The position numbers and the translations under genes were made by a program. A stretch of DNA of 64,000 bases from an uncultured Clostridia bacterium. Lineage in GTDB: Bacteria; Bacillota; Clostridia; Monoglobales; Monoglobaceae. The stretch is taken from positions 62,001 to 126,000 of the forward strand of contig CANQQJ010000002.1 in NCBI GenBank assembly GCA_947625905.1, read 5' to 3'. This document shows, piece after piece, positions 43,845 through 58,082 of the stretch. The notes under the pieces were generated by a model. The model was not told where the DNA came from. It ran no database searches and saw only the letters and a list, made by a program, of their open reading frames with translations. Position 1 is the stretch's first letter; the number at the start of each line of letters is the position of its first letter.

Positions 43845-46800
43845 TTAAAATACCGTAACGGGGTCGGCGAGGGGCTTCATGGTGTCGGCGCCGTCCCAGA
43901 TCATCAATTTGACGCTTTCGATCTCGGCGTTTTGCGGCACGCTTATCTCTTTGATGATCGCATCGTCTCCGTTTGCAAGATCCGCGCCGGTTATATCCGA
44001 GGCGACAAGCGCGCCTTCCGCGTCGTAGAACGCCAGGATGAACGCCGCGTTCATTTCCGAGCCGTCCGTCGGCACGTCATACACATCCTCTATGAAGATG
44101 TACGCGGTTATGTCTCCGCTTATCGCGCCCGGGTCGTGCAGCACGTTTTGCTCAGAGTCGGTCAGCAGCACGTCGGCGATCACTTTTGTGTCGGCCGAGC
44201 TCAGATCTATATATCCGTCCCATACCGTGATGTCCGCGCTGTCGCAGCTCTTTGTCTTTATTGCCGCGTCGCTTACGGTTATTCCGTATTCGCCTTTCGG
44301 CGCCGTCTCTTTCGCTCTGAGGCTGATTTGACACAGTTCGTCGCTCATAATATTTCCGCCGGAATATCTTACCGTTATCTTGCCGTCTGACGCCGAAACA
44401 GAAACAGACGAAGCCGCGGCGCCTTTGGGCGGAGTTACCGACTCGTATTCAAACGCGCCGCTGTCATAGTCAACCGTCATGCGGTAATCCGTTATCGTGT
44501 TCTCGCCGTACGCGTATATCGGCAGATCAACTGTGCCGCCGGCTCTGCTCGTTGCGTATCCCGGATACAGAAGCACTCTGTCGGGCGGCATTGCGGGCGA
44601 CAGCGTCGGAGCGGGAGCCGCGTTTTTGACCGTGTAGGCCGCCTCGAGCACTTCGCTGTTCGCCCAGCCTTTCTTTACGGCGATCGCCCTTATCGTCATT
44701 TCTCCGCTTATAATTATTCCGCCGCTGTATTTTTTGTAGTTATCGCTTGTCAGCGTGCCGTCGGTCGAGTAGTATATCTCGGCGCCCGACGTTGAGGTCT
44801 TGAGGGTCAAAAGCGTTCCCGCCTCGACTTCTCCGGGACTGACGTTTGTCTCGATAGTTTCGACTTCGGCCACCGTAACTCCCTCGGAGCTTACCTCACT
44901 GTCAATCATGCCCTGCTTTATCGCTATCGCTTTGATCTGCGCCGAGCTCGTCAGTTTTATCGGCTCTCTGTAGCGCTCAGAGGACGCCGACGGTTCGGCT
45001 CCGTCCGTGGTGTAATATATTTCGGCGCCGCTGTCGGCGCAGGTGATGTACACCGTTTTGCCTCCGTAGTATGACGCGGCCTGTATCAGCGGTTTCTCCA
45101 CCGTTCCCGCGGGAGCTTCGGGCTCTTTCACGGTCACGATAAACTGCGCGGTCTGTCCGTTATACGAAACGGTTATGGTCTGCTCGCCTCCGCTGTTTAT
45201 GTCATAGCCGTATACGTCATAGTCCGTCACGGGCTCGCTTGTGTAGTTGTTGTATTTCGCCGCGATCTCCATGCCGCTTGTGTCAAGGCTCTCGCCCATG
45301 TAGTACAGCGTTTTGTCGGGCGGCGTTGTTATCTCTATTCCGATAAGCGACTTCGCGATCACGTTTATATTGAACTCGGCCTTAAATTCTCCCTGCGTGA
45401 CTTCTATGGTCTGTTCGCCGAGCCTTGAGGCGTCGTAGCCGGATACTTGGTAGTCGTTCGTCTCCGCAGCCGTTCCGTCGGGGTACACGTTCTCGACCGC
45501 AAGTCCCGATATGTCAAGAGGCATTCCCTCGACAATGTCGGTTTTTGTCGGCGGCGTCTTTATCCGTATTCCCGAGGCGGTCAGTGCCGGTATCGTCTGT
45601 ATCACCGTTCCGTATTCCGAAACGTATTCCAAAGAACCCTCGCTGCTGTAGGTCGGTTCCGCGCGGTTTTCCACGCTCCACACGCTCGCGTCCGAAAGGT
45701 TCGGTATCTCGCGCGCGTCGGTCATGTCGCCGCCTATGCAGTATCTTTCGGCCGAGCCGCCCTCTGTCATGGTCGGTTCGTTTGTTATGCTCCACTCGCC
45801 GAAGCTGTGGCTTACCGTGAAGTCGTCATACGCGGTGTCCTCGGAGTAGTTCAAGGTCGCGGCGAATACCGCCTTTACCGTATATTCGCCTGCCGTGTCC
45901 GGCTTGTACGGAACGTATGTCGAATCGTCGGCGTCCTTTGCCTTGTACGAATATGTCACGTTATCGGTTCCGTTTGTGTCGGAGACCGCTATCGGCTCCG
46001 CCGCGGCCGCTCCGCCGCACAGATAGTCGGGCATTGTCACGCTCGTCTCTCCGCTCGCGGGAACTATGTGCGCCGCTGCCGCGAGGGGCGCGTTCTCTTT
46101 GGCCGTTTCTGCCGTGTAATATCCCGCGTCGGCGCCGCCTATCGTGATCTCCGAGAGGTTGACCGAGCTGTAATCTCCGGTCTCGGCCGAGGCGAAAGCG
46201 CCCTTGGCCGTCATCGTCACATCGTCGCCGCCAGTGTTGCTCGGGGTGAGCATCACGTTTGTGTCCGGTGTTCCGTCGAATACCTTGCTTGCCGCGAATG
46301 TCGCGTAATCAAGCGGCTTTTGGGTCATTGTGACCGTCACGGTGTTGCTGCCGCTTCCGGCTAAGTTTATGCTTCCTCCGTAGCTTGCGGTTATTTGGTT
46401 TTCTCCTATCTTGAGCCTCTTGTCGGCTTTTGTCTCAAATATCGCGTATCCGTTGTCCTTGAGGCCGTTTGCGTACTTAACGTCGGCCGTGCCCAGCAGA
46501 GTGTTTCCGACGTAGAAGTCGATTTTATCCTGTTCCGCGGCAAGGCTCACTCCCGAGCTCGCTCTTGAAACTTGAGCCGCGAGATAGAGCGTGCCGCCGT
46601 ATACGGCGGTTTTTGCCGCTCCCGCCGTCACGCTTGAAGCGCGCGGCGCTATCGTGATCCTCACGTTCAGCGTCACGGCCTGCGTTCCGTAATCCTCAAC
46701 GCTCATAAGAGAGAAGTTCGGCGTCTTTTCGACCGCGTTTATCGTCAGCGCGTAGTTTCCGTTGGCCGTGTCCGCGGGCACGATGAGCATATCTCCTTCG

Positions 46801-49800
46801 ATCTCGGCGCCCATGCTGTTGTCGCTCGATATCGTGTATATGAACTTATTCTTCGCGCTGTTTCCGTTTTTATATGACATGTGCTTTGACAGGTCCTCGG
46901 TTATTCCGTCGCCGTACACTGCGTTTAAGGTTATTTCCTTGGCTTCGCCGCCGTAGGGAGCGCGGCCGACCGCGTACACCGTCAAGTCATCCGTTATCGG
47001 CGTGCTCGCCGTGAATTTATATTGATCGCTGTTTATCGCCCACATATTGAAGATATATCCGTCGTTTGTCGGAGCGGCCGGAGGCGTTACGGTCCTGCCG
47101 TAGTTCACATATTTTACGGCGTATTCTTTGTTATTATCGGCCACGAATGTCACTTTCAGGACCTTTTTGGTGATCATGTCCGACAAGATCGGGTGATCGT
47201 CCTCGCCTATGGTCTGGCCCCATATCGGAGCCGCGGCTCCGTTTTGGAGCATATGCGCCACCGCGCCGGTCTTGAGCTCGTCGGCGGTTTTCGCTTCGGG
47301 CGTTCCCATGCCTCCGAAGCCGACGCCGCGCGGCGCCGAGCCCTCGAGATAGAAGCAGTTGATTATCCTGCTGTCTTCGGTTCCGCTGCCGCCTGCCACG
47401 GCGCCCAAGCCGCTCATATCATTTGCGCTCACGCCGCCCATATTCAGGCAGCTCTTTATTACCGATGAGGCGAGCGTGTCCAGATTGGTTTCAAACGATC
47501 CGACTATACCGCCGGTCTTGATGCCTGTGCCGCCCGAGACGGTGCAGTAGTTCAGGCAGTTTTCGACGGTTCCGCCCTCCAGAGAGGCGACGATTCCGCC
47601 GGTGGCGGAGCTGCCGCTGACTGAGCCCGAGACGGCCAGGTCTTTGACCATTCCGCCTTGAACGTCTCCGAACAGACCCGTATACTCGCCGCCGCTTGCG
47701 TAAAGTCCGCTTATCGTGTGTCCGCCGCCGTCAAATATGCCTCTGAACGAGTGGCTTCTGTCGTTTCCGATAGGCGTCCACGCCTGCTTGCCCTCGCCGT
47801 ATTTTTCCGACAGGTCTATATCGTTTGTAAGTGTGAAATACGCGCCTCTGCCGCCGCCCTCGTTCACGTAATCCCTTACAGATTCAAGGGTCTCAAGGTC
47901 GGGTATATCAAACGGAACTTCGGGTGTTCCCTCGCCGCTCAGCGCGGTTTCGGGATTGTTGATAAGCGTCGGCCTTCCGAGTATGTGATTGGTTTTCCAC
48001 GGGCCGCCGATCTTATTTGCCAGGGTGCTCGCGAAATCGTCCGCGCTCGCCGGGGATATAAGGATCTGAGTTATGATCGGGCTGCCGCTGCCTTTGTTGT
48101 TGGCGGAGCTGCCCTCGAGATAATACAGATCCGAGTACGACGCCGCCTCCAGTCCGTACGAACTGCAGCGTATCAATCCGATAGTCGCGCCGAACATATT
48201 GCCCGAGGCGCTGACATTGCCGTAGTTATACGCGTGGCTGATGTTCGCGGTCTTTTTTATGGTGGGGGATACCGACGAATTATCGTCCCTCAGTTCGCCG
48301 ATAATTCCGCCGACATAATTCGAGCCGCCCACGTTTCCGGCGTTATACAAATTGTTGGTCCGTCCCGTGGCAAGTCCGATAACGCCGCCGACGTCTTTGA
48401 GGCCCATGACTGCGCCGGTGTTATAAGACTCCGATACAACGTTCTCAAACAATCCCATGTATTTGTGATAGCCCGTAATTCCGCCCGTATAATCGTTTCC
48501 GTTTATATTGCCGCTGTTTGAGCATAACGATATGAGCGTCGCCGAGTTGCAGCCGGTGATGCCGCCCACATAGGTGTCGCCGCTTATATCGCCGCTGTTG
48601 CGGCAGCCGGTCACGGATAGCGTGGCCTCATCCTGCGTGATTCCCGCGATGCCGCCCGTGTAATTCTTGCCTATAACGTCGTTGTTGTTGGTGCAGTTCT
48701 CTATTGTCGACAGATAGTTTTTCAAGGTGCCCGCGATGCCGCCGGTGTTGTCGCCCTTGGCCGAGCTTATCGTGCCTCCGCCCGCGGTGTAGCAGTTTGA
48801 TATATGTACTTCCCTCCTTATGCTGAGCGGTCTGTCGGCCGCGTTTCCGACGATACCGCCGACGTTCGCGTCGCCGCTGACATTCACGCCTGTGGATAAA
48901 TAGCTGTTGGATATCGTTCCGCCCATGCTCAGTCCCGCAATGCCGCCGACGTTGGTGCCGCCGCTCACGTCTGCCGAAACGCCGCAGTTCGCTATCGCGG
49001 AGATTTCAGAGTCGCCGATAATGCCGCCGACATAGGTCACGCCGCTTACCGGCACGGAAACCTCGCAGTTTGTTACAGCCGCGTCTGTTGTGCCCGCGAT
49101 GCCGCCTACATGGTCGCCGCTCACCGTGATGCCGTCCTTAGAGAAAACGCTGCAGCCCGACAGCGGCTTGCTGCCGTATTTTCCGACGATACCGCCGACA
49201 TATGATCCGGCCGCGGTGATGTTCACGCCGCTGCGGCAGTCGGTTATCGAGCCCAGACATTCGCCCGCGATGCCGCCAATATAATCGCCGCGGCAGTTTA
49301 TCGAACCTGTGAGCGTCAGATTTTTGACCGCTCCGCTCTCGCCTATATGGCTGAACAGACCCTTGTAAGGATCGGTCGTTACTTGGTCGTTTATATAAAA
49401 TCCGCTTATCGTGTGTCCGTTGCCGTCGAGGGTGCCGTCAAACGCGGTGCTTATGGGAATCCAAGACAGCTTTCCCTCGCCGTATGTTGATGACAGGTCT
49501 ATATCGGCGGTTATCTTAAAGTGCTCGCCCATGCCTCCGCCGATTTCCTCTATATGCTTGCGGAAACGCTCAAACAACGCGGCGCTGCTGATGATATACG
49601 GATCATCCTCGGTGCCTGCTCCCAGGAACATGGACTCGGTATTTTCGCGCAGCTGGGGTCTGCCCAAGGCTGAGTCGGACCACACGCTGCTGTTTAGAGC
49701 GTCCGCCAGATTTTTGAAATCATCTTTTTTAAGCGACTGTATGCCGCTTTCATCGCCCTGTATAACGCCGTGGCCGGGTATTCTGTAGTGGGTCGAGTCC

Positions 49801-51659
49801 TCCAGCCAATAGCAGTTGTTTATCACAGCCGAGGCGGCTCTGATATAGGCGATGCGGCCGAAGTAGATGCCCGTGCCTATGACTGTGTTGTAGAAGTACG
49901 AATCCGACAGCTCGGAGCCGCTCTCCATTTCGCCGACCAAGCCGCCCGAGCCGTTGACCATTTGAGGCTTGCCGACGCTGTAGCAGTTCGTTATAACGCC
50001 GCCGCTTTTGAGAATGCCCGCGATGCCTCCGCTTTCGCGGGAGGAATCGCTCGAAAAGAACACGTTGGTATAGCAGTTTGTTATCTTTCCCGAGCACTTC
50101 GCCGCTATTCCGCCGTTGATCGTTCCGTTGCACCAAGTGGTTCCGTTTACGCTCAGGCCTTCTATCACGGTGTTGCTGCCGACGGTTCCGAACAGGCCCT
50201 GGTCGGAGGTGCTTGATTTGTAAATATTGCTGATCGTGTATCCGTTGCCGTCGAAATGTCCGTTATACGGAGTATTATCCGAGCCTATGGGAGTCCATAA
50301 AACCTCCTTCGGAGAGCTGCTGTTTCCGTCGTACACCCTTTCGCCGCACAGCAGCGATATATCTATATTTGCGTCAAGACGCGCGTATGTGCCGGAGCAA
50401 TCGTTGCCGCTGTTGACATAGTCGCGAAAGGCCGCGAGGGAGCGCGCGTTTTTGATAATATACGGGTCGTCCTCTGTTCCGCTGCCGTAAAACGTTTCCG
50501 GATTGTTTACAAGCAGCGGCGTATCGAGGAGCGGGCTCTTGCCCCACTCGGAATTAACGTTGTTTTGGTTCAGCGCATTCAATGTTTCCGGCTTCAGGAA
50601 GTCCGCGAGCTGCAGCGGTGTGGCAAATGGGTCACGCGGCCGTTTGTCGAGATAGAAACAGTTGATTACCGTTTCCTTGCTTATGTTGGGGCCGTTGGCA
50701 ACGTTTTTGCTTTCGCCGTATCCGACTAAGTAGTCCTGTAGCACAATAGTGCCGGTATTATAACAGGTTTCAACTCTGCTGTTCTCGTCGAAGTATGATG
50801 TTATTCCGGCGGGTTGGCCGTCGTCCGGACGGCAGGATCCGGCAACACTTCCGGTATTGTAACAGTTTTTTATTATTCCGTTATACTTATACCCCGCAAT
50901 TCCCGCTATCTTGTGGAAGTAACCCCTGACAATCATCATATATCCGCTTCTGACCATGGCGGTATTGTAGCAATTCAATATATTTCCGCCATTGCTTTGT
51001 CCTGCGATACCGCCAAAATAGCCATCAGAAGAGTCATTGTTACCGTCGACAGTGCCGAAATTGGCGCAGTTGATTATGTCCGATGTGCTATAGCCGGTAA
51101 TTCCGCCCACATATCCGCCGGGACGCTTAGAGAGGTAAGCAGTGTAGCTGTAAAGAGAGCAATAGTTTGTACAGTTTTCAATCGTTCCGTAGCTCGATCC
51201 CGCTATACCGCCGATATATTTATCCGCCTGGATATATCCTCTTACGGTCAGGTTTTTGACCGAGCCGCCCTCGCCGATACATCCGAACAATCCCTTGTCG
51301 TTCGCCGCTTTTTGCGATATGTATATTCCGAGCACGCCGTGTCCCGCGCCGTCGAAATGACCCTTAAAGGGTAGGTCGGGACTGCCGATAGGTGTATGCT
51401 GATTTTTGTCGCTGCCTTCAAGATCGACGGAGTTCGTCATCTTGAAATACATGTTTTCGCAGGTGTTGCCGCTGTTAACATAGTCGCGGAACACGATAAA
51501 CTCATCCCTGTTTGAGATGATATACGGGCTCACCTGCGTGCCCTCGCCCGAAAGTCCGGGTCCCTCCGCCGAAACGCTCAAAGTGAACCCCGGCATAAGC
51601 GACACCGTCATAGCGACCGCGAGTAAAATCCCGATCGCCTTTCTTAAACTTTTTTTCAT
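43845..51659 (-). CDS. Giant secreted multidomain surface protein (GLUG repeats, Ig-like, cohesin-like)
   Basis: 2604 residues from ATG 51659, 6 bases after AAAGGAGG. Signal peptide to about residue 32. Four large modules start near residues 37, 390, 678 and 1241; each opens with a GxGTExxPYII-type strand and a TPIG...F-x-G-x-x-D-G-x-G-H-x-I motif, then runs of GLUG-type repeats (GGIAG, NCYNTG). Then a Listeria-Bacteroides-type repeat (about 1496), a YDG/MBG-type domain (about 1783), two Big_3 Ig-like domains (about 2033 and 2106), two chitobiase-like C-terminal domains (EIYYTTDGAEP near 2200, EIYYSTDGT near 2280), a cohesin-like sandwich (2356-2483) and a C-terminal module with LMIWDGADTMKPL. 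No SLH or LPXTG anchor. Likely a very large adhesin. Confidence 0.9.
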   Translation of the reverse strand: MKKSLRKAIGILLAVAMTVSLMPGFTLSVSAEGPGLSGEGTQVSPYIISNRDEFIVFRDYVNSGNTCENMYFKMTNSVDLEGSDKNQHTPIGSPDLPFKGHFDGAGHGVLGIYISQKAANDKGLFGCIGEGGSVKNLTVRGYIQADKYIGGIAGSSYGTIENCTNYCSLYSYTAYLSKRPGGYVGGITGYSTSDIINCANFGTVDGNNDSSDGYFGGIAGQSNGGNILNCYNTAMVRSGYMMIVRGYFHKIAGIAGYKYNGIIKNCYNTGSVAGSCRPDDGQPAGITSYFDENSRVETCYNTGTIVLQDYLVGYGESKNVANGPNISKETVINCFYLDKRPRDPFATPLQLADFLKPETLNALNQNNVNSEWGKSPLLDTPLLVNNPETFYGSGTEDDPYIIKNARSLAAFRDYVNSGNDCSGTYARLDANIDISLLCGERVYDGNSSSPKEVLWTPIGSDNTPYNGHFDGNGYTISNIYKSSTSDQGLFGTVGSNTVIEGLSVNGTTWCNGTINGGIAAKCSGKITNCYTNVFFSSDSSRESGGIAGILKSGGVITNCYSVGKPQMVNGSGGLVGEMESGSELSDSYFYNTVIGTGIYFGRIAYIRAASAVINNCYWLEDSTHYRIPGHGVIQGDESGIQSLKKDDFKNLADALNSSVWSDSALGRPQLRENTESMFLGAGTEDDPYIISSAALFERFRKHIEEIGGGMGEHFKITADIDLSSTYGEGKLSWIPISTAFDGTLDGNGHTISGFYINDQVTTDPYKGLFSHIGESGAVKNLTLTGSINCRGDYIGGIAGECLGSITDCRSGVNITAAGSYVGGIVGKYGSKPLSGCSVFSKDGITVSGDHVGGIAGTTDAAVTNCEVSVPVSGVTYVGGIIGDSEISAIANCGVSADVSGGTNVGGIAGLSMGGTISNSYLSTGVNVSGDANVGGIVGNAADRPLSIRREVHISNCYTAGGGTISSAKGDNTGGIAGTLKNYLSTIENCTNNNDVIGKNYTGGIAGITQDEATLSVTGCRNSGDISGDTYVGGITGCNSATLISLCSNSGNINGNDYTGGITGYHKYMGLFENVVSESYNTGAVMGLKDVGGVIGLATGRTNNLYNAGNVGGSNYVGGIIGELRDDNSSVSPTIKKTANISHAYNYGNVSASGNMFGATIGLIRCSSYGLEAASYSDLYYLEGSSANNKGSGSPIITQILISPASADDFASTLANKIGGPWKTNHILGRPTLINNPETALSGEGTPEVPFDIPDLETLESVRDYVNEGGGRGAYFTLTNDIDLSEKYGEGKQAWTPIGNDRSHSFRGIFDGGGHTISGLYASGGEYTGLFGDVQGGMVKDLAVSGSVSGSSATGGIVASLEGGTVENCLNYCTVSGGTGIKTGGIVGSFETNLDTLASSVIKSCLNMGGVSANDMSGLGAVAGGSGTEDSRIINCFYLEGSAPRGVGFGGMGTPEAKTADELKTGAVAHMLQNGAAAPIWGQTIGEDDHPILSDMITKKVLKVTFVADNNKEYAVKYVNYGRTVTPPAAPTNDGYIFNMWAINSDQYKFTASTPITDDLTVYAVGRAPYGGEAKEITLNAVYGDGITEDLSKHMSYKNGNSAKNKFIYTISSDNSMGAEIEGDMLIVPADTANGNYALTINAVEKTPNFSLMSVEDYGTQAVTLNVRITIAPRASSVTAGAAKTAVYGGTLYLAAQVSRASSGVSLAAEQDKIDFYVGNTLLGTADVKYANGLKDNGYAIFETKADKRLKIGENQITASYGGSINLAGSGSNTVTVTMTQKPLDYATFAASKVFDGTPDTNVMLTPSNTGGDDVTMTAKGAFASAETGDYSSVNLSEITIGGADAGYYTAETAKENAPLAAAAHIVPASGETSVTMPDYLCGGAAAAEPIAVSDTNGTDNVTYSYKAKDADDSTYVPYKPDTAGEYTVKAVFAATLNYSEDTAYDDFTVSHSFGEWSITNEPTMTEGGSAERYCIGGDMTDAREIPNLSDASVWSVENRAEPTYSSEGSLEYVSEYGTVIQTIPALTASGIRIKTPPTKTDIVEGMPLDISGLAVENVYPDGTAAETNDYQVSGYDASRLGEQTIEVTQGEFKAEFNINVIAKSLIGIEITTPPDKTLYYMGESLDTSGMEIAAKYNNYTSEPVTDYDVYGYDINSGGEQTITVSYNGQTAQFIVTVKEPEAPAGTVEKPLIQAASYYGGKTVYITCADSGAEIYYTTDGAEPSASSERYREPIKLTSSAQIKAIAIKQGMIDSEVSSEGVTVAEVETIETNVSPGEVEAGTLLTLKTSTSGAEIYYSTDGTLTSDNYKKYSGGIIISGEMTIRAIAVKKGWANSEVLEAAYTVKNAAPAPTLSPAMPPDRVLLYPGYATSRAGGTVDLPIYAYGENTITDYRMTVDYDSGAFEYESVTPPKGAAASSVSVSASDGKITVRYSGGNIMSDELCQISLRAKETAPKGEYGITVSDAAIKTKSCDSADITVWDGYIDLSSADTKVIADVLLTDSEQNVLHDPGAISGDITAYIFIEDVYDVPTDGSEMNAAFILAFYDAEGALVASDITGADLANGDDAIIKEISVPQNAEIESVKLMIWDGADTMKPLADPVTVF

Positions 51660-51726
51660 ATTAAAAACCTCCTTTATATAGGGTTTATTATTTTCGATTT
51701 TTTGCCTCTTTGCCTCGCAAATCCCC

Positions 51727-51751
51727 GTAGTGGCGGATATCATCCGCCCGC
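51727..51751 (+). repeat. Third copy of the GTAGxGGCGG palindromic unit
   Basis: 25 bp, differing at 2 positions from the inverted complement of the unit at 5356-5380. A second GC hairpin (GCCTCGCCCC-TTGGGGCGAGC region, 51754-51773) follows, as in REP doublets. Confidence 0.7.
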
Positions 51752-51850
51752 CTGCCTCGCCCCTTGGGGCGAGCCTGACATCCGCCTTCCGTCGGGGTAC
51801 AAATATCCATATTCTAATCATACATAAAAAATAATATTTTTTAACACTTA

Positions 51851-51881
51851 TGACACGAAACGCGCGTTTTTTGACACGAAA
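51851..51881. promoter_or_regulatory. Direct repeat TGACACGAAA with 21-bp period
   Basis: Two exact 10-bp copies at 51851-51860 and 51872-51881, exactly two helical turns apart, upstream of the giant gene. Likely a binding site for a regulator dimer. Confidence 0.45.
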
Positions 51882-52010
51882 AGTCGGTATGTTGTTTTGG
51901 GCAAGTTGCACAAAATTGTAAATAGCGCGCGAGCATACGCGAGTATTTCAAAGAAAACGGCCGAAAACGAGAGCTTATAATTATCTAAATTAATTTTTTG
52001 AAAAAAGTGC

Positions 52011-53034: not shown

Positions 53035-53883
53035 CTAAATATTATTGCGGAAGCTCGCGCGGTATTGATTTGGAGAAAGTCCGATCATCCGCTTAAAATA
53101 CGTCGAAAAATGAGAGCTGCTGTTGAAGCCGCACCGTTCCGATATTTCCGTAAGCGGCAGGTCCGTGCCGAGCAGCAGCTTTTTCGCTTCATTCAGTCTT
53201 CGCGTCAGAATATATTGGTGGATGCTTTGCCCGGTGTGCCGCAAAAACAGACGGTTCAGGTGATACTCGTGGTAACCGACCATTTTGGCAAGCTGTTCGT
53301 TTTTAATGTCCTGTTTAAAATTTGTGTTGATATAATTAATGATGCTCGACACCGCGCTTATCGAGTTATCCGTTGGCAATGTCCGGCCGCGGACGATGTC
53401 GATGAGAATACCCTTCAAAATGCCTCCGGCTTTTTCCCGAAAATATAATTTTTTCAGTTTAAATTCCGTAACGATGTCATTTATCGCGTCCGAATAATTT
53501 TTCCCGTTTTTTATATAAATGTGTGAATTTATAAAATCGCAATCGCGCACCTTTTCGTTTTCGCGCTTTAAATCAATAGTTGCTTTTTCAACGGGCACGG
53601 GAGGCATCGCGTCGGTCAGATTCGCGTTTTTCTGGGTCAAATCAAAGTTAAACACGATCAGAGCGAGCCCTTCTTCCGATACAATGTCGTATACGCTGTT
53701 TTCGCGGCAGAAAAGCAAGGCTCCTTCGGTCAGTATGTGCCTTCGGTCCTCTATAAAAATTTCGCCTCTGCCCGAGAGTATGTAAAAAAGGCGGCAGTCT
53801 TTAACAAATACGCTTCGTTTTGCGGAGCGGTAATCAATTTGTTCCGCAAAGCGTATGCAGGGATTGATCTCGCTTAAAGTCAT
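53035..53883 (-). CDS. AraC family transcriptional regulator with cupin-type sensor
   Basis: 282 residues from ATG 53883. The N-terminal half has a cupin-like pattern (DCRLFYILSGRGEIFIEDRRH, then LTEGALLFCRENSVYDI), typical of ligand-binding AraC sensors. The C-terminal third has two helix-turn-helix motifs (QLAKMVGYHEYHLNRLF and LPLTEISERCGFNSSSHFSTYFKRMIGLSPNQYR in parts). It is divergent from the U32/QueG-like operon with a 112-base gap that has an inverted repeat, so it very likely controls that operon. The ligand is unknown. Confidence 0.93.
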   Translation of the reverse strand: MTLSEINPCIRFAEQIDYRSAKRSVFVKDCRLFYILSGRGEIFIEDRRHILTEGALLFCRENSVYDIVSEEGLALIVFNFDLTQKNANLTDAMPPVPVEKATIDLKRENEKVRDCDFINSHIYIKNGKNYSDAINDIVTEFKLKKLYFREKAGGILKGILIDIVRGRTLPTDNSISAVSSIINYINTNFKQDIKNEQLAKMVGYHEYHLNRLFLRHTGQSIHQYILTRRLNEAKKLLLGTDLPLTEISERCGFNSSSHFSTYFKRMIGLSPNQYRASFRNNI

Positions 53884-53945
53884 TTTGATTTTCTCCGATC
53901 ATATGTTTGTTTTATTAAAAAAGTTGTTGGTTTTATGTATTCATC

Positions 53946-53965
53946 TTAACAGAAAACCGTGTTAA
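53946..53965. promoter_or_regulatory. Inverted repeat in the regulator/operon gap
   Basis: TTAACA, 8 bases, TGTTAA. Symmetric operator-like site between the AraC gene and the operon it probably regulates. A possible -10 (TAAAAT) overlaps the right arm. Confidence 0.45.
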
Positions 53966-53995
53966 AATCAAGATATATTTTTTGAGGTGATCGCG

Positions 53996-54943
53996 ATGAA
54001 ATTTATGGTCGGGCTTTCTCAGAGAGATTTCGGCTTTACCGACTGCATTATAGAGAACAAGGCGCATATAGACGAGGTATATTTTTCGTGGGGAGGGATC
54101 CCGAACGGAAGAAGCGCGCAGACGGAAGCGGAGGCGTACACGCCGTGGGAGCTTTGGGACATGCAAAGAGCCGCTCTCAAACGGCTTTCCGAACACGGCA
54201 TATCGCTGAACCTGCTTTTTAACGCCAACTGCTACGGCAGGGACAGTCAATCGAGGGCGTTTTTTAACAAGATCGGAGAAGCGGTCGACTACATCACGCA
54301 GAACTACGGCCTGCGCTCGGTGACCACGACTTCACCGCTGATCGCGAAATTCGTCAAAAACAATTTTAAAGAGACAGAGGTGCGGGCTTCGGTCAATATG
54401 GAGATCGGGACCGCGCAGGGTATGGAATATCTTGCGGAGTATTTCGACAGCTATTATATTAAACGCGAGCTGAACCGGAATTTTGAAGCGATCAAGGATT
54501 TGCGCGATTGGGCGGATGGGAACGGAAAAAAGCTGTATATGCTGGCAAACAGCGGGTGTTTGAACTACTGCTCGGCGCACAATTTTCACGACAATCTTGT
54601 ATCGCACGAGAGCGAGATCGCGCAGATGGATAACGCCTATGAATTTCGCGGAATTTGCCGCGAGTATCTGGCGGACGCGCGGCATTATGCGGCGCTGATC
54701 GAAAACACCAACTTCGTCCGTCCCGAGGATATTTATAAATATGAGGCGTATTTTGACGCGGTGAAGCTGGCGACCAGGGTCCACAAAAATCCGGAAATGG
54801 TGCTGAAAAGTTATATTAACGCAAGGTACAGCGGTGATATACTCGGGCTGCTGGAACCGGCACACAGCATTTATCCGTATGTGATCGAAAACGGCGACCC
54901 GCTTCGGCTGGTAAAAATAGATACAAATATTTTGGGAGGGTGA
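53996..54943 (+). CDS. Peptidase U32-like protein
   Basis: 315 residues from ATG 53996, 5 bases after GAGGTGA. It looks like a TIM-barrel U32-family protein: KFMVGLSQRDFGFTDC start, HIDEVYFSWGG and SVTTTSPLIAKFVKNNF, and a late KLYMLANSGCLNYCSAHNF. Cysteines at 17, 79, 188, 192 and 221 are spaced so that an iron-sulfur site of the UbiU/UbiV/TrhP kind is possible; U32 proteins often carry one. Not all usual U32 motifs are seen. It is the first gene of the operon with three QueG-like genes (gap to the next 3 bases), so it probably acts in the same pathway. Substrate unknown. Confidence 0.75.
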   Translation: MKFMVGLSQRDFGFTDCIIENKAHIDEVYFSWGGIPNGRSAQTEAEAYTPWELWDMQRAALKRLSEHGISLNLLFNANCYGRDSQSRAFFNKIGEAVDYITQNYGLRSVTTTSPLIAKFVKNNFKETEVRASVNMEIGTAQGMEYLAEYFDSYYIKRELNRNFEAIKDLRDWADGNGKKLYMLANSGCLNYCSAHNFHDNLVSHESEIAQMDNAYEFRGICREYLADARHYAALIENTNFVRPEDIYKYEAYFDAVKLATRVHKNPEMVLKSYINARYSGDILGLLEPAHSIYPYVIENGDPLRLVKIDTNILGG

Positions 54944-54946
54944 AAA

Positions 54947-56026
54947 ATGCTGACAAGCAAAATGATCAAAGAAGCGGCGCTTGCCGCGGGAGCGGACGCC
55001 TGCGGCATAGGGCCTATGTCCCGGTTTGACGGCGCTCCGGATGAGATGAATCCGCAGTTTTTGTTTCCGGAAGCGAAGAGCGTTATCGGCTTCGTGTTCC
55101 GTATCCCGCGCGGAGTGCAGAGAGGGATCGAAGAGGGAACGCAGTTTTATCAGTATCCGTCTATGGCGTACGGCGGCATCAATGAAATTTTTGCGCCCGC
55201 GGTTTTGTATCAGGTGGGAAAAGTGATAGAGGACGAAGGGTACGAGGCGTTTGTTTACCGCAATACCGGCGCGCGCGGCGTTGTGTCGGATATGGACGGC
55301 AGCCCCGGCAACACTCTTTCGCCGGAGGAGCAGATAGAGATCAACGAAAACGCCAAGACGTCCACCGCGCATCATCGAAGCGTGCAGTTTACCCGCCCCG
55401 CGCGGGAAGGGAGCGTGGCGCCCGATCTGCAGTTTCAGTTCAGACTTGCCGCGGTCGCCTGCGGGCTTGGCGAGATCGGCTGGAGCAAAATGCTGCTTAC
55501 GCCGGAATTCGGGCCGCTGCAAAGGGTGGCGTTTCTCTTTACGGACGCCGAGCTCGAATATGACGAGATGTATAGCGGCAAGCCGCTGTGCCGCCGCTGC
55601 GGAGCCTGCGTGAGAGAGTGTCCCGGCGGATGTATCCCCGCGATCAATTCGGGCAAGACGGTGCGCGTGGATCTGGACGGAAAGATATGCGAGTGGGGCG
55701 ATATAGACATGTGGCGGTGTTACGCTTTCTATACCCATGCGGGCAGATATTATAATCCGTTCGTCCCCAAGGAGGTCTGGGATAAAAACGAGGGCGGCGC
55801 CCTTGATTTGATGGAGGGCGTTACCGACATTGCGAACGAGCAGGAGATCATGAAGGTGTATACCGCCCTGCAAAAATATTTCCCCAGCTGGGTGGGCTAT
55901 AATATGGCAAAGTGCGGCGGCTGCATACGCGCTTGCGTTTCGATGCTTGAGAAAAAGGGCGGCTGTATGGAAGGCAGATTTAGGGAGCCGCTTCGCACCA
56001 AAAAAGCGTGGAAACTGGACAGATAG
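54947..56026 (+). CDS. QueG/reductive-dehalogenase-like iron-sulfur protein (paralogue 1)
   Basis: 359 residues from ATG 54947, after GGGAGGG. The N-terminal domain (MIKEAALAAGADACGIG, then SVIGFVFRIPRGVQRGIEEG) resembles the cobalamin-binding part of epoxyqueuosine reductase and reductive dehalogenases. C-terminally it has two cluster motifs: CRRCGACVRECPGG (C215, C218, C221, C225) and CGGCIRAC (C323, C326, C330), with a conserved WRC (C258) likely as the missing ligand, i.e. two [4Fe-4S] clusters. The QueG tRNA-binding C-terminal domain is absent. It has an extra 30-residue insertion near 115-145 compared with its two neighbours. Reaction unknown; a reductase is inferred. Confidence 0.82.
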   Translation: MLTSKMIKEAALAAGADACGIGPMSRFDGAPDEMNPQFLFPEAKSVIGFVFRIPRGVQRGIEEGTQFYQYPSMAYGGINEIFAPAVLYQVGKVIEDEGYEAFVYRNTGARGVVSDMDGSPGNTLSPEEQIEINENAKTSTAHHRSVQFTRPAREGSVAPDLQFQFRLAAVACGLGEIGWSKMLLTPEFGPLQRVAFLFTDAELEYDEMYSGKPLCRRCGACVRECPGGCIPAINSGKTVRVDLDGKICEWGDIDMWRCYAFYTHAGRYYNPFVPKEVWDKNEGGALDLMEGVTDIANEQEIMKVYTALQKYFPSWVGYNMAKCGGCIRACVSMLEKKGGCMEGRFREPLRTKKAWKLDR

Positions 56027-56073
56027 CGGAGAAAAGCCGAAAAAGCGGATGATTTGAGAGAAAGGGTGACAGG

Positions 56074-56964
56074 ATGCTTACCGCTGAAATGATAAAACAA
56101 AAAGCGAGGGAATTGGGCGCGACGGTTTGCGGGATAGGAAAAGTGTATGACGAACCCGACCCGCAGCGTGACCCCCGAATGATCTTGCCGCACGCAAGAT
56201 GTATCATAGGCTTCGGATTTGCCGTGCCGAAGGGGTTATATAAGGCAATGGAACGAGGAAAGCAGTTTTATACCTATACGACGATAGGAGTAAAGTATGC
56301 CGATGAGGAGATGGCGGAAATATTTTTGCTCAAGATCGGCGGAATGATCGAGGACGAGGGTTATGATGCCTGTCTGCAAAAGGCAATTCCGAATTTGAGG
56401 GTAAAGGGCGACAAAACCACCAATCCGGAGGTCGTGGACACGTATGAATTGATCTCGGACCCTGTGGAGGAGGGAAAGCCCGCCCCCGATGTCATCATTG
56501 ACTTCGGCAGGGCAGCAAAGGCCTGCGGACTCGGCGAGACGGGTCTGAACGGAAAGATCATAAACAGGAAATACGGGCCGTTCATGCGGTACTGCTTTAT
56601 TATCACCGACGCGCCTTTGGACTGCGATGAGGAGTTGAAAGAACGTATTTGCGACAAATGCGGCGAATGTATCAAAGCTTGCCCCGGCAGCGCTGTCAGC
56701 GAGATGGGGCTCGATACTTGGCAATGCAGCGTCTACTACAAGGGCGCGCATAAGTCAAATCCGTTTATGACAGAGGATTTTCTGAAAGGAGATCCCGAAA
56801 GAGAAAAGATATTAAACGGCGATAAGCGTTTTGACGCGAAATCGGCAAGAGAGATCTACGGCGAGATGAACTTTCTGCCAAACACACAATGGGGCTATTC
56901 ACCCTGCCTGTGCGGGAGAAAGTGCGATATTGCCTGTTACAGACACATAGTGGGGGAATTGTAA
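56074..56964 (+). CDS. QueG/reductive-dehalogenase-like iron-sulfur protein (paralogue 2)
   Basis: 296 residues from ATG 56074, 47 bases after its neighbour. The same layout: MIKQKARELGATVCGIG, ARCIIGFGFAVPKGLYKAME, the shared ACGLGETGLNGKIINRKYG block (in part), CDKCGECIKACPGS (C193, C196, C199, C203), a W-Q-C (C218) and CLCGRKCDIAC (C280, C284, C288). It is shorter than paralogue 1 and lacks any C-terminal tail. Close to paralogue 3, with which it shares NPEVVDTYE/NPEVAYDA-like positions, so the three look like an old tandem duplication rather than a recent one. Confidence 0.82.
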   Translation: MLTAEMIKQKARELGATVCGIGKVYDEPDPQRDPRMILPHARCIIGFGFAVPKGLYKAMERGKQFYTYTTIGVKYADEEMAEIFLLKIGGMIEDEGYDACLQKAIPNLRVKGDKTTNPEVVDTYELISDPVEEGKPAPDVIIDFGRAAKACGLGETGLNGKIINRKYGPFMRYCFIITDAPLDCDEELKERICDKCGECIKACPGSAVSEMGLDTWQCSVYYKGAHKSNPFMTEDFLKGDPEREKILNGDKRFDAKSAREIYGEMNFLPNTQWGYSPCLCGRKCDIACYRHIVGEL

Positions 56965-56965
56965 A

Positions 56966-57901
56966 ATGAAAAACAAGATCACGGAGCTCGCAAAGCAAAA
57001 CGGCGCGGATGTTATCGGATTTGCGCCCGCCGAGCGATTCGAAAAAGACTCTCCGATATTTCAAATTATGCCGGAAACCAAAACCGTGATAGGGTTGGGC
57101 TTTCGTATTCTGCGCGGAATTTACCGCGGGATCGAGGAGGGCAGCACCTATTATCAGTATACCACTATGGCGGTTGAAAACATGGAGGAAACAGTCATGC
57201 CGATGGCGCAGCTGAAAATCGCGATGATGCTGGAGGAGGCCGGATATATCGCGCTTCCGCAGCGCCGTCACCAGCAGATCATGGCGGAGGAGGACAGCAC
57301 CAATCCGGAGGTGGCATACGACGCGATACGCAGAGGCAGAACGGCGGAAACGCAGATCGATTTTTTGGATACCGCGGTAAAGTGCGGGCTTGGGGAAAAA
57401 GGGTTCCACGGGGCGCTTTTGAATGAGGATCACGGCCCGTTTATCCGGTACTGCTTCGTTTTGACGGACGCAGAATTTGAAGCGACGGAGGAATACGCGC
57501 CTCACATCTGTGACGGCTGCGGAGCGTGCAGGGCGGCCTGTCCCGGCAAAGCGATCGACGCGGACGGAAACATCGACCCGTGGCAGTGCGCTGTATATTA
57601 TAACGGCGCCAACGGAACCAAAAATCCGTTTATGCCGCCGGATGCGTTTGCGGATCTTGATAATCGGCTTGAGATTATCGCGGGAGAAGCGAAGGTCACT
57701 CCCGAAACGGCAAAAAAGATTTTGGATAATATTTATTTCTATCCGCCGGCGCAGCACGCCTACCAATGCTCCATATGCGGCAGGGCGTGCGATACGGCAT
57801 GTTACGCCCATCTGGAGGAAAAAGGCGTATTGAAAAAGAAGTATAAAACGCCTTTCCGCAAGCGGGAGGATTGGAAATTCAGCCTGAATGATTTTAAATA
57901 A
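56966..57901 (+). CDS. QueG/reductive-dehalogenase-like iron-sulfur protein (paralogue 3)
   Basis: 311 residues from ATG 56966, one base after the stop of paralogue 2, so translation is likely coupled. Motifs as in its neighbours: TVIGLGFRILRGIYRGIEEG, CGLGEKGFHGALLNEDHGPF, CDGCGACRAACPGK (C182, C185, C188, C192), WQC (C208) and CSICGRACDTAC (C268, C271, C275, C279). Ends the operon; a terminator follows 20 bases later. All three likely need iron-sulfur clusters and perhaps a corrinoid; reductase role is inferred. Confidence 0.82.
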   Translation: MKNKITELAKQNGADVIGFAPAERFEKDSPIFQIMPETKTVIGLGFRILRGIYRGIEEGSTYYQYTTMAVENMEETVMPMAQLKIAMMLEEAGYIALPQRRHQQIMAEEDSTNPEVAYDAIRRGRTAETQIDFLDTAVKCGLGEKGFHGALLNEDHGPFIRYCFVLTDAEFEATEEYAPHICDGCGACRAACPGKAIDADGNIDPWQCAVYYNGANGTKNPFMPPDAFADLDNRLEIIAGEAKVTPETAKKILDNIYFYPPAQHAYQCSICGRACDTACYAHLEEKGVLKKKYKTPFRKREDWKFSLNDFK

Positions 57902-57920: not shown

Positions 57921-57953
57921 AAACCCCGAAGCCGCAAGGCTTTCGGGGTTTTT
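57921..57953 (+). terminator. Terminator of the QueG-like operon
   Basis: AACCCCGAAGCC pairs with GGCTTTCGGGGTT; TTTTT follows. Confidence 0.9.
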
Positions 57954-58082
57954 GTATATGTTATTTTATCTGTGCGGGCTTACGGATTTTTACAGCTTTT
58001 AACTCAAAATAAATAACTTTATAGGGTTAAATTGATACATTTTAACGCAACATATACAGAGAAATAAAATTGACTTTTTGAA

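Follow-up and report, generated by a model that had tools for sequence, protein, structure and literature searches.

An AraC-linked operon encoding a U32-fold protein and three class III cobalamin-type reductase-like proteins in gut bacteria

Background

Two functions have been established for the reductase fold that combines cobalamin with two clusters, namely dehalogenation and epoxyqueuosine reduction (PMC4646009). The Z-score published for the comparison of PceA, a reductive dehalogenase (RdhA), with the epoxyqueuosine reductase QueG is 15.5 (PMC4646009). The U32 oxidases (UbiU/UbiV, TrhP, and RlhA) share the U32 TIM-barrel fold and four conserved cysteines, usually spaced CX6CX15CX3C. In the literature on QueG/U32 and QueG-like proteins, no description was found of the gene set considered here, which consists of a U32-type gene followed by three QueG-like genes (A, B, and C). 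It lies in a stretch of 64,000 nucleotides that was analyzed as a whole (the window).

Results

Layout of the locus

The original prediction of five genes, with a divergent AraC regulator facing U32-A-B-C, describes a real layout, and the coordinates of the genes were recovered in the window (Table 1). The operon genes are also as tightly spaced as predicted, with gaps of 3 (U32/A), 47 (A/B), and 1 (B/C) bases. For the U32 gene, the ATG at 53996, which is preceded by GAGGTGATCGCG, is a likelier start than that at 53987. The five genes are flanked by ribosomal protein genes (L13/S9 type by eye) on one side and by an ATPase gene on the other. Upstream of the ribosomal genes, on the minus strand (43845-51911), is encoded a repetitive protein of 2688 aa, apparently a secreted surface protein. 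Cobalamin riboswitches are present in the genome; the only Rfam element in the window is a tRNA, and no cobalamin riboswitch was found at the operon.

Table 1. Coordinates of the operon, its regulator, and associated elements in the window
Feature	Coordinates	Strand	Evidence
AraC-family regulator, N-terminal cupin-type (AraC_binding) domain	53035..53883	-	HTH_18 E 6.7e-28; AraC_binding 1e-4 (weak)
Tandem direct-repeat operator, TGTTTGTTTTAT / TGTTGGTTTTAT	53904..53936	.	Start-to-start distance 21 bp; repeat scoring across loci
Likely -10 element TAAAAT, U32-A-B-C promoter	53963..53968	+	By sequence; downstream of direct repeat
U32-fold protein, invariant C82, C191, C195, C224	53987..54943	+	Model pLDDT 90.9; 5D88 Z 19.7; Cys 43/43
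A: predicted class III cobalamin-type reductase, partner type of the U32 protein	54947..56026	+	Model, pN/pS, tree
B: paralogue that has lost the Arg-rich loop RxxRGxxRGxEEG and the C-terminal tail; 8 of 8 Cys kept	56074..56964	+	B clade 99/99
C: paralogue with all 8 Cys; Arg-rich loop intact	56966..57901	+	C clade 100/99
Terminator-like hairpin and T run, 3' of C	57923..57955	+	By sequence

Fold and cysteines of A, B, and C

All of the motifs that A, B, and C had been predicted to share (CxxCxxCxxxCP, W(R/Q)C, and a C-terminal Cys motif) are present. The ligand-type cysteines are 215/218/221/225/258/323/326/330 in A, 193/196/199/203/218/280/284/288 in B, and 182/185/188/192/208/271/275/279 in C, and each of these eight positions is conserved in no fewer than 49 of the roughly 51 orthologues of the protein concerned. 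All three proteins give weak matches to Fer4 models.

The predicted structure of A (mean pLDDT 82, weak around residues 111-150) was compared with the PDB. All 46 matches with E < 1e-3 are RdhA or QueG, followed by the B12 chaperones CblC/CblD; the Z-scores are 15-16 against all QueG/RdhA entries and 8.6 against MMACHC. For PceA the VIA Z-score is 16.2, and for QueG it is 15.7, the latter alignment covering QueG residues 1-247 of 370. Considering the published PceA-QueG value, A is therefore about equally far from PceA and QueG as these two are from each other. As modelled, A has the corrinoid-domain and 2x[4Fe-4S] ferredoxin fold of class III cobalamin enzymes, and by their homology to A, B and C are predicted to share this fold. 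The earlier view of the three as diverged paralogues with a corrinoid-reductase-like N-terminus is supported. The Arg-rich loop, kept in A and C and lost in B, precedes the helix that carries the catalytic Tyr in QueG/RdhA and, by analogy, may face the substrate. The position of this Tyr in A, B, and C is unsure because of uncertain alignment.

Relation to QueG and RdhA

A tree was calculated from 56 proteins, comprising 22 A/B/C rows, 18 relatives, and sampled QueG and RDH-type proteins. Each of A, B, and C forms a clade of its own, and together with the 18 relatives they fall on one side of a branch (support 97/98) that separates them from the sampled QueG/RDH-type proteins; long branches were flagged and the deep branching order is unsure. 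The bit scores of A, B, and C against TIGR00276 (QueG) are 26-45, compared with a cut-off of 200, and those against TIGR02486 (RdhA) are 27-43 (E 4e-10 for A), compared with a curated cut-off of 160.35.

With QueG, the three proteins share the corrinoid and ferredoxin regions of the fold and the eight Fe-S cysteines. They differ in lacking the C-terminal helical repeat domain, in their own tree branch, and in their operon with AraC and U32. The missing tRNA-binding part had been predicted, and A indeed aligns to the first 247 residues of QueG and has only a short tail after the second Fe-S motif. Near the D-Y-H site, which is DYH in all eight QueG proteins compared, A, B, and C have QYP, TYT, and QYT, respectively. 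PF08331 (QueG_DUF1730) had no match anywhere in the genome, in which QueH was found and QueG is absent. With QueH present and the QueG motifs absent, a queuosine role for A, B, and C was rejected, in keeping with the original prediction that they are not epoxyqueuosine reductases.

With RdhA (PceA and NpRdhA), they share the fold, the two Fe-S cluster motifs, and the GLGEIG...LLTPEFGP region, but they are shorter, score below the family cut-off, and have another active-site loop and a carbohydrate setting. Taken together, A, B, C, and their relatives are not QueG and not demonstrably RdhA; they form, within the class III cobalamin fold, an AraC-linked branch of their own that is tied to a divergent U32 protein.

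The U32-fold protein and its pairing with A

The model of the U32-like protein has one outstanding match, the U32 protein 5D88 (Foldseek E 4.7e-13, Z 19.7), the next row having a Z-score of 13.3. No Pfam match was found at E 1 (PF01136 included), nor any NCBIfam match, and the hhalign alignments to canonical U32 proteins from related genomes were not meaningful (Prob 9%). The U32 call in the original prediction therefore holds at the level of fold, and not in sequence profiles. The protein does have a cysteine set of its own, as had been claimed, and probably carries its own [4Fe-4S] cluster. Like the U32 oxidases it has four conserved cysteines, but their spacing, C-x108-C-x3-C-x28-C, is unlike the usual one.

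A further difference from these oxidases is the association with a corrinoid-type reductase gene. When the U32 protein alone was used as the query against 291 genomes, all 22 strong matches (above 320 bits) had a QueG-like gene on the same strand nearby, mostly within a few bases, compared with none of three weak matches (near 100 bits). In six loci, U32 occurs with one A-like gene and without B and C. The pairing and these shorter loci together indicate that U32 and an A-type protein form the conserved core. In two loci found through C (L132 and L133), U32 is on the strand opposite to A-B-C and adjoins the regulator. Distant U32-fold relatives (46-115 bits; L140-L147) occur in apparent peptide-synthetase and other biosynthetic clusters (by eye), and those in L140-L142 have no QueG-like partner.

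Conservation and distribution

A scan of species genomes with B as the query gave 51 species loci. Among these independent loci, most of those on sufficiently long contigs have the U32, A, B, and C orthologues in the same order; all four are full length and on one strand in 40 of the 51, and a divergent AraC orthologue is present in most. The ordered recurrence of the four genes across independent species loci is more than chance. The set is thus conserved, with U32, QueG-like genes, and AraC recurring as neighbors in related genomes. Within the genus of the window itself, C is found in 1 of 12 genomes, that of the window. All 26 loci with a ruminant gut site in the title come from cecum, colon, or rectum, the remaining loci having rumen or unspecified titles; the source project took 148 stomach, 111 small-intestine, and 111 large-intestine samples, these being numbers of samples and not of MAGs per region (PMC8199421).

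The pN value is lowest for A (0.078, with pS 0.77), followed by B (0.153), C (0.176), and U32 (0.284), while pS is 0.77-0.83 (saturated) for all four genes. At equal, saturated pS, A is therefore the most constrained of the four proteins, with purifying selection at its strongest. As for the 83-95% identity of A, recent horizontal spread was rejected as its source, since pS is about 0.8 in all four genes, and sequence searches for plasmid or phage carriage of A gave no match.

In 17 of the 51 loci, A and B are separated by a small cupin gene; one locus has this gene downstream of C, and one two-gene pair has it as a neighbor. In one locus (L077:7875-9713), B and C are fused in a single reading frame (612 aa) with about 35 residues of B absent, which suggests either that B and C contact each other or an assembly or deletion artefact.

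Regulatory region

The divergent AraC regulator with a cupin sensor, as originally described, is borne out by the HTH_18 match and a weak AraC_binding match. AraC genes are likewise divergent to the U32-less relatives (7 of 7 scanned), so the AraC neighbor is a trait of the wider branch. Of the operator claimed earlier, an imperfect inverted repeat does exist (53934-53951/53960-53977, 78% complementary), but the element conserved across species is a tandem direct repeat instead. This repeat, TGTTTGTTTT at 53904 and 53925, spaced by two helical turns, is common to the regulator/U32 intergenic regions and lies just upstream of the -10 element; a -10-like element follows it in many other loci too. 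A spacing of 21 bp is the best in 31 of the 53 sequences scored, and the repeat match is perfect (18/18) in eight of the 53, compared with a shuffled mean of about 12. A genome-wide search for a regulon with this operator gave five matches, versus four in the reversed control.

Genomic setting

No sugar gene lies beside the operon in the window. Elsewhere, the neighbors include GH43, GH116, GH106-like, and hairpin glycosidase-like proteins (and GH3 by eye), GDSL and beta-lactamase-like esterases, Gfo/Idh oxidoreductases, aldose epimerase, tagaturonate reductase with altronate/galactarate dehydratase, and sugar-binding proteins (by eye). DUF5696, with a GH101-like signal, is joined to or beside the operon in 14 loci; no literature on this domain was found. 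Beside the two-gene U32/A-like form are found GH10, GH28, GH2, and a BD-FAE-like esterase, and one such locus reads DUF4432-Q-U32-amidohydrolase-isomerase-FGGY kinase-SIS, where Q is the QueG-like gene and the isomerase is arabinose-isomerase-like. These neighbors are mostly carbohydrate genes and, as raw counts without a matched background of other operons, point to carbohydrates, and not to the aromatics or organohalides originally suggested. Gut Clostridia are generally rich in carbohydrate genes. Since the GH families differ from locus to locus, no single substrate is singled out.

A radical SAM/SPASM gene adjoins the operon in three loci (L035:3868-4851, L080:9827-10819, and L134:6890-7882), the L134 copy scoring 250 bits against a tungsten-oxidoreductase maturase model (cut-off 380). 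In two others (L031:448-4517 and L046:464-4530), a glycyl radical enzyme, its activase, and a Gfo/Idh gene adjoin the regulator. Tandem pairs of QueG-like genes (about 375 and 290 aa) without U32 occur in L125, L126, L127, L129, and L130, the divergent AraC gene being confirmed in all of these except L127. One genome (G062) has 19 QueG-like matches in separate loci (L115-L123 among them). One of these is an A-like gene close to a lactonase gene, and another encodes an 852-aa protein whose C-terminal half is QueG-like.

Discussion

The best explanation, to which we assign a probability of roughly 0.4, is that the operon encodes an inducible corrinoid/Fe-S reductase and a U32 protein whose joint target is a C-O bond in a sugar or sugar acid of plant origin. 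The cofactors, electron flow, substrate, reaction, and division of labor that we infer for U32-A-B-C are as follows. The AraC protein would sense a sugar-like ligand and activate U32-A-B-C from the direct repeat beside the -10 element. A, and probably C too, would carry a corrinoid in base-off form together with two [4Fe-4S] clusters, like QueG/RdhA, judging from fold and cysteines, and the bound corrinoid would give Co(I) chemistry. The U32 protein, as the regular partner of A, would act on the same substrate, and the target would be a C-O bond, whether O-methyl, hydroxyl, or epoxide-like, in a sugar or sugar acid that the breakdown of plant cell wall sets free. B, without the Arg-rich loop, would more likely serve as a subunit for electron transfer or structure than act as a third reductase in its own right, and the whole redox system would be cytoplasmic and inducible. 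Of the inducible multi-step reduction of a plant molecule proposed earlier, the inducible type of layout stands, with AraC facing the operon. Three successive reductions are not what the gene content naturally suggests, because A and U32 are the core and U32 occurs with one QueG-like gene without B and C.

A sharper form of this explanation is the O-demethylation of methylated plant sugars, such as the 4-O-methylglucuronate of xylan or the O-methyl sugars of pectin, in which either Co(I) would take the methyl group or the U32 protein would hydroxylate it without oxygen while A handles electrons. U32 oxidases do hydroxylate without O2 (PMC11574389). In one operon, a U32/Q pair accompanies an AraA-like isomerase and an FGGY kinase, where a pre-catabolic processing step would sit, a xylanase (GH10) and a pectinase (GH28) are beside other U32/A-like pairs, and the Arg-rich loop could hold a uronate. 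However, no methyltransferase or folate gene was recognized among the annotated subset of neighbors, and there is no direct link to any methylated sugar; this form is rather doubtful. The literature on methyl sugars gave no lead. The first proposal, that phenolics or other small molecules released from plant material by esterases are handled reductively, draws on the GDSL, serine, and BD-FAE-like esterases near some loci and on the herbivore large intestine as the source, but appears unlikely, as no aromatic-degradation gene was recognized in the same annotated subset and the genes for sugar isomerase, kinase, and uronate enzymes accompany the loci more closely.

For A, B, and C as reductive dehalogenases speak PceA as the closest fold and the TIGR02486 E-value of A; on comparison of the sequences this is nevertheless very improbable, with all scores far under the cut-off, a position outside the RdhA branch, the sugar setting, and no RdhB-like partner adjoining the operon in the window. 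Epoxyqueuosine reduction or another RNA-modifying role could be argued from the QueG fold, from a genome without QueG, and from the RNA hydroxylases within the U32 family (PMC11574389). Against it are the presence of QueH, the absence of DYH and the tRNA domain, and the patchy, AraC-linked operon, and we consider it highly unlikely.

Conclusion

Returning to the preferred reading of C-O bond chemistry on plant sugars, we tentatively suggest, at the more speculative end, that A and its relatives are a third, AraC-linked class III cobalamin branch, two-component with a dedicated U32 iron-sulfur protein, by which C-O bonds of plant cell-wall sugars would be cleaved anaerobically, through O-demethylation or dehydroxylation, in the large intestine of herbivores. 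If true, this would be a third kind of chemistry for the cobalamin and two-cluster reductase fold, and it would tie together two poorly understood redox families, the class III cobalamin type and U32. U32-A-B-C would offer a compact and testable group of genes for a so far unexplained step in fiber breakdown by uncultured gut bacteria, and in the gut bacteria of herbivores it probably contributes to the processing of plant cell-wall sugars.
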